64,000 nucleotides of DNA, taken from positions 4,752,501-4,816,500 of the forward strand of contig NZ_CP022203.1 of assembly GCF_002305895.1 (NCBI RefSeq), in the 5' to 3' direction. The notes beneath the pieces were generated by a model that was not told the origin of the DNA, searched no databases, and worked only from the letters and a program-made list of their open reading frames with translations. This document shows, one piece after another, positions 2 to 3,646 of the stretch. The position numbers and the translations under genes are program-made. Position 1 is the first letter of the stretch. The number at the start of each line of letters is the position of its first letter. This stretch comes from Corallococcus macrosporus DSM 14697. Lineage in GTDB: Bacteria; Myxococcota; Myxococcia; Myxococcales; Myxococcaceae.

Positions 2-1744
2 CTCGAGAAACTACACAAGCACGCCGCAATCAGTAGCCAAGTCACAGGGCAAGACATTGAAGCCATAAAAAACTCCCCCGACTGGATCAAGGCAGCCCGC
101 AAACACTCAAAGGACATCAATTTAATACATCCAGCCGACGCCCCAGACCCTTCCCCAGTCATTCTGCTGCGATACCCAACCCCCAAGGAGTTCGACTTCA
201 AACATGAAAGTCAATTCAAATCACTCCTCCATAGACTTGAAAAAGGCCAATGGAACCCCATGAACAAAACACCTGCAGAGATAAACTCTCTCGCAGCATC
301 CAACACGCAAGGTGGATTTTACACTGCCCAGGAAAGCGCCCCCGCCTACTTATACACCGTAGCACGAGCTATTCACGAGGCCGAACACCCTCGCGCCAAA
401 AGCGCCCCTGGTGCACAGAAGCGACTCGCAGATGCCGAACTGTTCAACAGAGTTCTGCATGCCCTGCTTGGCGCTGAAATCGAATCAATTCCAGACGACG
501 AACTCCAAGCAATACCAACCTTTCGCGGCCGCCCGCTCGACGTGCGCGAGCTATCAGCTGGCGAGCAGGTACTGATGTTTTGGGCCATCATCATCCACAG
601 ACAACGAGACTGGCTCCAAAACGCACAAATCCTGATCGACGAACCGGAGAACCACCTACACCCCGATGTATGCATCCGCGCAATCAACGCCCTACGTGAA
701 GAAGCACTTGGCCACGGCTCCCGGATCTGGCTCGCCACCCACTCGCTCCCACTGATTGCCCATGCAGGAATCGAATCCGTCCACATTGTCGACAACGGAG
801 CAATAGAATCCTCAAGCGGCAAGATAAATCAAATGGTCGATCGGCTTCTTGGCGGCAACGATGGCCGAATCAAGCTACAGCGACTCCTAGCAGACGCCGA
901 CACAATGGCTATCGACAGCTTCGCAGCCCAATGCCTGCTGCCCCCGGAAGCCATAAGCGCACGAGACGGAGACCCTCAGCAGCACCAGATGTGGCAAGCA
1001 GCCCAGCGGTTCGCGAGCGAAGATGGCCATATCCGCATTCTCGATTATGCAGCCGGACGTGGGCGACTTGCAGCAGCCCTCAGCGAACGCAATTGCGGCA
1101 CACATGCCTTCACTTACTACGCATACCAATCACCCGCCTACAGCAGCAGTGACGACGAAAAAGAATGCGCCAACCACATCCAACAACTGAACCAACCTGG
1201 CGATCCGAACGCTTACATTGTCAAGTCACTCAGCGGCCTAAACATCGCCGGCACGAATTCAATGAACGTCGTCCTCATGTGCAATGTGCTCCATGAGATT
1301 CCGACCCGGGATTGGATTCGCGTCTTCAAGAGCATTCATGATGTACTGACCCCTAACGGCAGAGTCGTCATCCTGGAGGATCAGTTGCCCTCTGTGGGAG
1401 AACTCCCTCATGACAACGGATACGTGATTTTGCATGGCGCAGCGCTGATGGAGTTGTTTGGCTCTCCGGATGCAGTTGAAGTTCTGCCGTCTGAACGCGA
1501 CGGCCGACTCACTGCGTTTTGCATTCACCGCCCCTCTCTTGTGAACGTAACCCCCCACACAGTCACCCGGGCACTCAAGAAGGTCCGCGACCACGCGCAG
1601 GAACAGCTCCGCCTGATCCGAACGCAGCACCTAGCATCACGAACATTCCAGGAAGGGCGACGCCACGCACATTTCGCGATGCTCTACGCGAACGCCGATC
1701 TGGCCCTCGAAGAGTACCCTCCAGACGCGAACAGCACTCGCTGA
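2..1744 (+). CDS. ABC/AAA-type ATPase fused to class I SAM methyltransferase (5' partial)
   Basis: The reading frame is open from the window edge, so the N-terminus, including any Walker A motif, lies outside. Numbering from the in-frame ATG at 260: an ABC-type signature (LSAGEQ) at residues 98-103, Walker B (QILIDEPENHLHPD) at 123-136 and an H-loop (LATHS) at 158-162 show the C-terminal half of an SMC/OLD-like AAA ATPase. From about residue 258 a Rossmann methyltransferase begins: motif I (LDYAAGRGRL) at 261-270, then a motif IV-like stretch (VLMCNVLHEIP) near 338-348 and a strand ending ILED near 371-374. No methylation substrate can be inferred. The gene is clearly less GC-rich than the rest of the window and uses many A/T-ending codons, suggesting transfer. 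Domain calls are fairly sure; a defence or DNA/RNA-modifying role is only a guess. Confidence 0.75.
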   Translation, partial: LEKLHKHAAISSQVTGQDIEAIKNSPDWIKAARKHSKDINLIHPADAPDPSPVILLRYPTPKEFDFKHESQFKSLLHRLEKGQWNPMNKTPAEINSLAASNTQGGFYTAQESAPAYLYTVARAIHEAEHPRAKSAPGAQKRLADAELFNRVLHALLGAEIESIPDDELQAIPTFRGRPLDVRELSAGEQVLMFWAIIIHRQRDWLQNAQILIDEPENHLHPDVCIRAINALREEALGHGSRIWLATHSLPLIAHAGIESVHIVDNGAIESSSGKINQMVDRLLGGNDGRIKLQRLLADADTMAIDSFAAQCLLPPEAISARDGDPQQHQMWQAAQRFASEDGHIRILDYAAGRGRLAAALSERNCGTHAFTYYAYQSPAYSSSDDEKECANHIQQLNQPGDPNAYIVKSLSGLNIAGTNSMNVVLMCNVLHEIPTRDWIRVFKSIHDVLTPNGRVVILEDQLPSVGELPHDNGYVILHGAALMELFGSPDAVEVLPSERDGRLTAFCIHRPSLVNVTPHTVTRALKKVRDHAQEQLRLIRTQHLASRTFQEGRRHAHFAMLYANADLALEEYPPDANSTR

Positions 1745-1877
1745 GAGAACGTCATGGCCCTACCGCCGCCGAAGTCCTCTTGGTGTCGGGCCGACGAAGA
1801 CGCTCGTCTGTGGCCCGAGCCAACCTCCTGATTCTACTCTCCGTCAGGGTCGAATGCCGCCAACTGTTCAGGTCGTG

Positions 1878-1898
1878 GCCCCCCACCATTCTGGGGGC
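1878..1898. terminator. GC hairpin between the ATPase-methyltransferase gene and the helicase gene
   Basis: A 6-bp perfect stem (GCCCCC at 1878-1883, GGGGGC at 1893-1898) with a 9-nt loop lies 134 bp after the upstream stop and just before the helicase GTG start. There is no T-run, so intrinsic termination is doubtful. Confidence 0.3.
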
Positions 1899-1909
1899 GC
1901 ACCCGGCCG

Positions 1910-3646
1910 GTGCAGGTGGTACAAGGCCCGGCCGTGAAAGCCCCCCAGCCCCCCGCCCCCGTCGAGGCCACCTTTGATTCCCTGGGCTTGAAGCCCGCGC
2001 TCGTCGAGGCGCTCAGCGCGCTCGGCTACGAGGAGCCCACCCCCATCCAGGCCGCCGCCCTCCCTCCGCTGCTCGCGGGGAAGGATCTGCTCGGCATCGC
2101 CGCCACCGGCACCGGCAAGACGGCCGCCTTCGCCCTGCCCCTGCTCAACCACGTGGAGCCCGGCGCCTGCCGGCCCAACACCACCTCCGCGCTGGTGCTG
2201 GTCCCCACGCGCGAGCTGGCCATGCAGGTCTCCGAGGCCATCCACCGCTACGGCCAGAAGCTCGGCATCTCCGTGCTGCCCCTGTACGGCGGGCAGGTCA
2301 TCGGCCAGCAGCTCCGCGTCCTCAAGCGCGGCGTGGACGTCGTCGTCGCCACCCCGGGCCGCGCGCTGGACCACCTGCGCCGTGGCACGCTCCAGCTCGA
2401 TGACGTGCGCGTCGTCGTGCTCGACGAGGCCGACGAGATGCTCGACATGGGCTTCGCCGAGGACCTGGAGGCCATCCTCTCCGGCACGCCCGAGGACCGG
2501 CAGACGGCCCTCTTCTCCGCCACCCTCCCGCCGCGCATCGCCAGCATCGCCGAGCGCCACCTGCACGAGCCCGTGCGCGTGAAGATCGCCCGCGAGAAGG
2601 TGGAACAGGGGGAGATGCCCCGCGTCCGCCAGACGGCCTACGTCGTCCCGCGCGCCTTCAAGATCGCCACGCTGGGCCGGCTGCTCGACGTGGAGTCCCC
2701 CACCGCGGCCATCATCTTCTGCCGCACCCGCACCGAGGTGGACGACCTCACCGTCTCCCTCAACGGCCGAGGCTGGCGCGCGCACGCCCTGCACGGCGGC
2801 ATGACGCAGGAGCAGCGGGACCGCGTCATCAAGCAGCTCAAGTCCCAGGGCACCGACCTGCTCGTGGCCACCGACGTGGCGGCGCGCGGCCTGGACATCC
2901 CCCGCCTGTCCCACGTGGTGAACTTCGACGTGCCCAACGCGCCGGAAGCCTACGTGCACCGCATCGGCCGCACGGGCCGCGCAGGCCGCGAGGGCGTGGC
3001 CATCACCCTGGTGGAGCCCCGCGAGCACCGCCTGCTGCGCAACATCGAGCGCGTCACCGGCCAGCGCATCGAGGTGGCCACCGTCCCCACCGTGGCGGAC
3101 ATGCGCGAGAAGCGCCAGGAGCTGCTCCGCGCCTCCCTCCGCGAGACGCTGGTGGCCGGCGAGTACGACTCCCTCCGCAACGTGGTGGAGGGACTGGCCA
3201 GCGAGTTCGACGCCATGGACATCGCCGCCGCCGCCGTGAAGCTGCTCCACGAGGCCCAGGACGAGGGCCGCGACACGGAGGAGACGGAGATCCCCGTCGT
3301 CGCCCCGCCGCAGGAGCGGCGTGAGCGCCCGGGCGGCAAGTTCGGAGGCCCCGCCGGCCGCGCGGGCCCTGCCCGAGGCCCCAAGGCGCGCGGTGGCCCG
3401 CCGACGTGGGACGTCACCCGCCTGTGGATTGGCGCGGGCCGTCACGCCGGCATGCGCCCCGCGGACCTCGTGGGCGCCATCGCCGGGGAGGCGGGCGTGG
3501 AGTCCTCCAAGATTGGCGCCATCCAGATTGGCGACACCTTCTCCCTCGTGGAGGTGCCCGAGTCCGACGCCAACCGCATCATCGCGGCGCTGAAGAACGC
3601 CACCCTGCGCGGCAAGAAGGTGCAGGTCCGCAAGGACCGGAACTGA
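1910..3646 (+). CDS. DEAD-box ATP-dependent RNA helicase, DbpA-type C-terminal domain
   Basis: A 578-aa RNA helicase that should unwind RNA duplexes in ribosome assembly or RNA turnover. Visible motifs in order: Q-motif region ending PTPIQ, motif I ATGTGKT, PTREL, motif II DEAD (VVLDEADEML), SAT, a second RecA domain with the VATDVAARGLDIP segment, and motif VI HRIGRTGRAGR. After a linker rich in Gly, Pro and Arg (about residues 465-500) comes a domain like the DbpA/CsdA RNA-binding domain (about residues 502-578), which has an RRM-like fold and usually sets RNA target choice. The start is GTG; a second in-frame GTG at 1934 is equally possible and neither has a clear ribosome-binding site. 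Typical high-GC codon use marks the return to core genome. Confidence 0.9.
   Translation: MQVVQGPAVKAPQPPAPVEATFDSLGLKPALVEALSALGYEEPTPIQAAALPPLLAGKDLLGIAATGTGKTAAFALPLLNHVEPGACRPNTTSALVLVPTRELAMQVSEAIHRYGQKLGISVLPLYGGQVIGQQLRVLKRGVDVVVATPGRALDHLRRGTLQLDDVRVVVLDEADEMLDMGFAEDLEAILSGTPEDRQTALFSATLPPRIASIAERHLHEPVRVKIAREKVEQGEMPRVRQTAYVVPRAFKIATLGRLLDVESPTAAIIFCRTRTEVDDLTVSLNGRGWRAHALHGGMTQEQRDRVIKQLKSQGTDLLVATDVAARGLDIPRLSHVVNFDVPNAPEAYVHRIGRTGRAGREGVAITLVEPREHRLLRNIERVTGQRIEVATVPTVADMREKRQELLRASLRETLVAGEYDSLRNVVEGLASEFDAMDIAAAAVKLLHEAQDEGRDTEETEIPVVAPPQERRERPGGKFGGPAGRAGPARGPKARGGPPTWDVTRLWIGAGRHAGMRPADLVGAIAGEAGVESSKIGAIQIGDTFSLVEVPESDANRIIAALKNATLRGKKVQVRKDRN

Follow-up and report, generated by a model that had tools for sequence, protein, structure and literature searches.

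The gene at the left edge of the window (the whole stretch of 64,000 nucleotides of Corallococcus macrosporus DSM 14697 analysed here) encodes one polypeptide in which an N-terminal ABC ATPase is joined to a C-terminal class I SAM methyltransferase, with intact motifs in both parts. It belongs to a horizontally mobile family whose patchy occurrence reflects lateral gain and loss. In our preferred reading, to which we give a probability of roughly 55%, the fusion is a stand-alone, horizontally moving defence-type protein whose ATPase would gate a methyltransferase effector acting on a non-DNA target.

The open frame at 2-1744 on the forward strand is real and runs past the left window edge. Whole-genome sequence showed that the full gene has 639 stop-free codons and starts at an ATG ~175 bases left of the window, so that the 3' part within the window encodes 580 amino acids followed by the stop. 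The features of the gene and of its surroundings are as follows (window coordinates unless another frame is given):

L002:15326-17245 = G000:C1:4752325-4754244 (one contig of 8.97 Mb): complete fusion gene, from the whole-genome read.
2-1744, + strand: fusion gene, 3' part, from the reading frame and the whole-genome sequence.
Left of the window, aa 33-40: Walker A GPNGAGKS, from the whole-genome sequence.
551-565, + strand: ABC signature LSAGE (aa 243-247), from the sequence; L243 in 33 of 34 homologues, S244 and G246 in all 34.
629-649, + strand: Walker B ILIDEPE (aa 269-275), then the D-loop HLHP, from the sequence; DEPE and HLH in 34 of 34 homologues, a count that is partly by construction because DEPExHLH served as scan pattern.
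734-745, + strand: H-loop ATHS (aa 304-307); THS in 34 of 34 homologues.
1001-1381, + strand: class I SAM-dependent methyltransferase core (aa 393-519), from Methyltransf_23 and an AlphaFold domain model.
1040-1066, + strand: SAM-binding motif I LDYAAGRGR (aa 406-414); D407 in 33 of 34 homologues, G411 and R414 in all 34.
1283-1297, + strand: catalytic-loop motif NVLHE (aa 487-491); E491 in 34 of 34 homologues, H490 and V488 in 33, N487 in 32.
1376-1402, + strand: invariant acidic stretch ED......GE (aa 518-526); E518, G525 and E526 in 34 of 34 homologues, D519 in 33.
1547-1705, + strand: C-terminal two-helix tail with the pattern G..H(A/G)(H/F)(Y/W)..L.ANA.LAL; N623 invariant.
1-1859, no strand: right part of the foreign segment (whole segment L002:15266-17360), which replaces ~55 bp of the intergenic spacer of four close relatives.

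Walker A, signature, Walker B and H-loop all lie in one chain, as expected of an ABC ATPase, and the Rossmann-like core with its GxGxG-type motif I (LDYAAGRGR) places the C-terminal part among class I methyltransferases. Two Pfam families scored above the cut-off, AAA_21 (aa 234-311, 6e-9) and Methyltransf_23 (aa 393-519, 1e-8). The two-domain frame is not a product of chance, because ~35 homologues have the identical domain order. The initial annotation, made from the letters of the window, had proposed a single-chain fusion of this kind and had pointed to the signature, Walker B and H-loop, all of which are present; its caution that Walker A might be missing upstream no longer applies, since GPNGAGKS was found there. 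It had also failed to recognize the fusion as a described type, and indeed no NCBIfam, PADLOC, PHROGs or Pfam model spans the whole chain, all matches being partial and confined to single domains.

Of 195 genomes in the phylum, 7 carry a full-length homologue; identity is 33-50% when the own genome is left aside. Within the genus, 2 of 27 genomes have the fusion gene. The homologues are thus sporadic and not part of the core genome, contrary to one possibility raised by the initial annotation. When the family alignment was run against the genomes of 84,980 species, at least ~29 further loci came up, nearly all matched over both domains; the alignment was required, as a single-sequence scan of genome contigs gave no match. 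Four further homologues were found in a viral collection. In total there are at least ~35 full-length homologues, with five phyla (Pseudomonadota, Bacteroidota, Campylobacterota, Bacillota and Myxococcota) among the matches listed. Phyla interleave with supported branches in the tree: Myxococcota form two separate groups, the Limnohabitans copy falls among Bacteroidota, and the Aliarcobacter copy stands with an alphaproteobacterial one. The GC content of the gene was equal to or below that of its surroundings in all 33 loci measured. Searches with several queries covered 72,556 plasmids and 50,697 phage records and found no homologue, which is unusual for a mobile defence gene and is counted against the defence reading. 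DNA-level searches, which are sensitive to close relatives only, gave no match in E. coli. One further genome of the phylum (G099; L010 / L031) contains a decayed copy of the fusion gene, with an intact start that includes Walker A and then frameshifted fragments, followed by a frame that by eye resembles an AbiEi-like antitoxin.

The gene had been suspected of being acquired and compositionally foreign, and both points were borne out. Its GC content is 54.8% (59% at third positions) compared with 72-74% in the flanks, and none of the other 1.74-kb stretches sampled in the window fell below 67%. Its neighbours are an MCE/MlaD-type transport operon on one side and a DEAD-box helicase gene on the other (the names MlaD and DEAD-box come from reading frames and not from a family scan). 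Four close relatives (G124, G134, G135 and G136) lack the gene at this site; their flanks are ~92-96% identical and are joined by ~55 bp, which in C. macrosporus DSM 14697 are replaced by 2,095 bp with the fusion gene as sole content. This arrangement indicates a clean gain of one gene. No tRNA gene, integrase frame or transposase frame was seen at the insertion site.

The same gap has a different content in other members of the genus. Most congeners keep two conserved genes there (~916 and ~277 aa), accompanied by variable ones; in the spacer from MlaD to the DEAD-box gene (window 1745-1910) two genes (~916 and 277 aa) are missing, both here and in the four close relatives. Another genome of the genus (G113) carries at this site a low-GC gene of 983 aa (L148:87-3038) that encodes a dynamin-like GTPase with a C-terminal TIR domain and matched ThsB of PADLOC at 4e-63. 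The site was also considered as a pure defence hotspot. We rejected this, since most congeners hold the two conserved genes and variable ordinary ones, the TIR gene being an exception.

With regard to the ATPase, a profile search of PDB gave its best match to PtuA, known from Septu and retron Ec78/Ec83 (1e-15), and its second best to AriA of PARIS (1e-10), with GajA and OLD well behind. Thus, the initial annotation was right to assign it to a defence-associated kind, and of its label 'SMC/OLD-like' the OLD/PtuA-like part stands; an SMC/Rad50 affinity was rejected because PtuA and AriA score best. The best partial matches in PADLOC were AriAB (8e-18), PtuA and AriA; MAD3 gave a weak match of 28 bits, where the cut-off is 420. 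The Nannocystis homologue, which is 39% identical, was modelled with a mean pLDDT of 76 and a pTM of 0.51, the insert between Walker A and the signature being poorly predicted; this model could be superimposed on PtuA structures, the highest Z being 15.1 (250 residues, 3.7 Å). The ATPase motifs are invariant across the 34 homologues, which also holds in the subset from a whole-protein search. The patterns of the homologue scan sat in Walker A and Walker B (L032 and later loci), so the conservation of these two motifs in pattern-found loci is partly by construction; the methyltransferase motif counts are unaffected.

Comparison with known systems revealed both likenesses and differences. PtuA (Septu, retrons Ec78/Ec83) has the same OLD-like ABC ATPase core and is the best profile and fold match, but its partner is a distinct protein, the HNH nuclease PtuB, to which the retrons add a reverse transcriptase, whereas the fusion protein has an attached C-terminal methyltransferase and no recurring partner of either sort. 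It has therefore the PtuA-related ATPase of Septu and retron I-A systems and lacks their adjacent HNH nuclease or reverse transcriptase. OLD and GajA (class 1 and 2) are likewise single chains with an N-terminal ABC ATPase and a C-terminal catalytic domain, and class 1 OLD genes are stand-alone (PMC10568477); however, they carry a TOPRIM nuclease where the fusion protein has its methyltransferase, and the Pfam scan of the fusion protein gave no TOPRIM match. OLD-type effectors have been described as TOPRIM nucleases in a review (PMC10568477). AriA resembles the ATPase by the profile and PADLOC matches given above, but the effector of PARIS, AriB, is a TOPRIM tRNA nuclease, which is neither fused nor adjacent here. 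MADS (with the AAA ATPase MAD3) and the CxC/DndD ABC ATPase systems also tie an ABC-type ATPase to methylation in defence; these are multi-gene systems with DNA methylases. It should be noted that OLD-family ATPases are not always defensive: the archaeal member Cran1 functions in the cell cycle and apparently plays no part in defence (PMC12796447).

The methyltransferase is a class I SAM enzyme that is nearest to small-molecule and RNA methyltransferases. An AlphaFold model of the domain from the window's own sequence (pLDDT 88.7) matched class I enzymes at Z ~14-15, including GtmA/TmtA, PsoF, bacterial Hen1, METTL6 and the toxoflavin enzyme; as the Z values are tied among class I enzymes, these matches are uninformative on the substrate. 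The C-terminal two-helix tail lies outside the span of the PDB fold matches. The methyltransferase profile found weak matches alone in PDB, to the natural-product enzymes AprA and DisA, and a PHROG named tRNA methyltransferase was matched at 2e-5 here and at 7e-8 in a homologue. In the family-level search, all strong matches to the methyltransferase profile were fusion proteins. The residues D407, G411, R414, E491, E518, D519, G525, E526, G532, R561 and N623 are conserved in all or nearly all of the 34 homologues from five phyla, which indicates that methyltransferase activity is under selection.

These data also bear on what is methylated. The initial annotation had linked the methyltransferase with self-marking, which does not agree with its motifs: neither [DNS]PP[YFW] of DNA amino-methylases nor the C5-type PCQ is present, and NVLHE stands at the position of the former in nearly all of the 34 homologues. 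RNA or a small molecule appears to be a likelier target than DNA. Another reading, a restriction-like or self-marking system in one chain whose ATPase would scan DNA and whose methyltransferase would modify it, we consider most improbable. Such a system would be in keeping with an ATPase from a DNA-related superfamily, and DNA modification systems, the type ISP enzymes among them, typically join an ATPase to a methyltransferase; apart from the motifs, however, profile and fold comparisons both lead to enzymes that act on small molecules or RNA, and the chain has neither a nuclease domain nor a recurrent nuclease neighbour. Also improbable, if less so, is a role in self-resistance or detoxification, in which an antibiotic or toxin would be methylated under regulation by the ATPase. 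Myxobacteria are rich in secondary metabolism, and natural-product or toxin methyltransferases (GtmA/TmtA and the toxoflavin enzyme) are among the top fold matches, but no biosynthetic neighbours recur over 36 loci, the hosts of the homologues differ widely in metabolism, and no such roles are known for OLD/PtuA ATPases.

Analysis of the genes around the homologues by recurrent-neighbour clustering showed that no neighbour family occurs in more than 4 of 36 loci, and the nucleases, helicases or recombinases that had been suggested as recurring neighbours do not recur. The protein therefore appears to act by itself or together with host factors. Ordinary core genes (tRNA synthetases, UvrA, RecBC, glycosidases and TonB receptors) predominate beside the homologues. 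Some copies adjoin defence genes, such as a 1186-aa SIR2 protein with ThsA/LmuA matches and a type II methylase. At 1e-20, PADLOC matched ~4-8 of 86 genes within two positions and 0 of 89 distant genes, several of these matches being generic (RmuC, a kinase and a lone methylase).

The core neighbours fit another explanation, namely a mobile accessory enzyme that takes no part in immunity. It would be a methyltransferase associated with RNA or ribosomes and driven by ATP, active for example in tRNA/rRNA modification or RNA repair, which the ABC module positions on its substrate. The match to the PHROG tRNA methyltransferase and the presence of METTL6 and bacterial Hen1 (Z ~15) among the tied top fold matches point in the same direction. 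However, class I folds score alike for any substrate, and small-molecule enzymes reached the same Z; the ATPase is nearest to PtuA/AriA and not to ABC-F or UvrA; and a patchy, low-GC spread is more in line with a defence gene than with a housekeeping modifier. On balance, we regard this explanation as unlikely.

The four homologues from the viral collection lie on predicted viral contigs (IMG/VR). One adjoins a Zot-bearing inovirus-like element, another lies close to siphophage tail genes, the phage being a relative of Stenotrophomonas phage S1, and a third follows a baseplate gene of P2-type phages. Such copies do not prove prophage carriage, because IMG/VR contigs can include host flanks. 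A Pseudomonas homologue (L045; L145:537-3618) adjoins a filamentous-phage-like gene set with a Zot-domain ATPase. In a P2-like context, a homologue is adjoined by an apparent ribbon-helix-helix/GNAT toxin-antitoxin pair (L142:6173-6978), with GNAT identified by Pfam and the antitoxin by eye.

Considering all these results, a one-gene defence protein fits best, because the gene is lone and laterally moving, its ATPase is of the OLD/PtuA type, and both active sites are under selection. The PtuA/AriA affinity, the invariant methyltransferase residues, the lone clean gain, the patchy spread, the low GC content, the copies on viral contigs, the excess of PADLOC matches near the gene and the dynamin-like/TIR gene at the site in a congener were all counted for this reading. 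Counted against it were the mostly core neighbours, the generic nature of some PADLOC matches, the lack of homologues among plasmid and phage records, the host flanks that IMG/VR contigs can include, and the Cran1 precedent. The defence role, the gating of the methyltransferase by the ATPase and the class of substrate are inferred. In the proposed mechanism, the OLD/PtuA-like ABC ATPase would dimerise on ATP and serve as sensor and gate for some infection cue, with the methyltransferase as effector in the place that the TOPRIM nuclease holds in OLD/GajA. A switch in the state of the ATPase module, as suggested by analogy with OLD, GajA, PARIS and Septu, would allow the methyltransferase to modify a non-DNA target; candidates are RNAs such as tRNA, components of the translation machinery and essential small molecules. 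Methylation of this target would then stop the infected cell or the phage.

The literature searched contained no ATPase-methyltransferase fusion of this sort, the large 2020 survey by Krishnan et al. (NAR 48:10045) of conflict systems with ABC ATPases lying outside its scope; an earlier mention of the architecture, for example in that survey, is possible. As sensor modules, OLD/PtuA-type ATPases are widespread in bacterial immunity, and those of their effectors that we found described are nucleases. Methylation of a non-DNA target is, to our knowledge, a chemistry not known for this class of ATPase. We tentatively propose, as a suggestion that may well not hold, that the fusion represents an undescribed single-gene immune family, in which an OLD/PtuA-type ATPase senses infection and releases a methyltransferase effector, and the cell is shut down via non-DNA methylation. 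If this is true, the ATPase module can gate chemistry other than nuclease cleavage, and the family would provide a compact one-gene system whose sensor, gate and effector could be dissected by point mutation.
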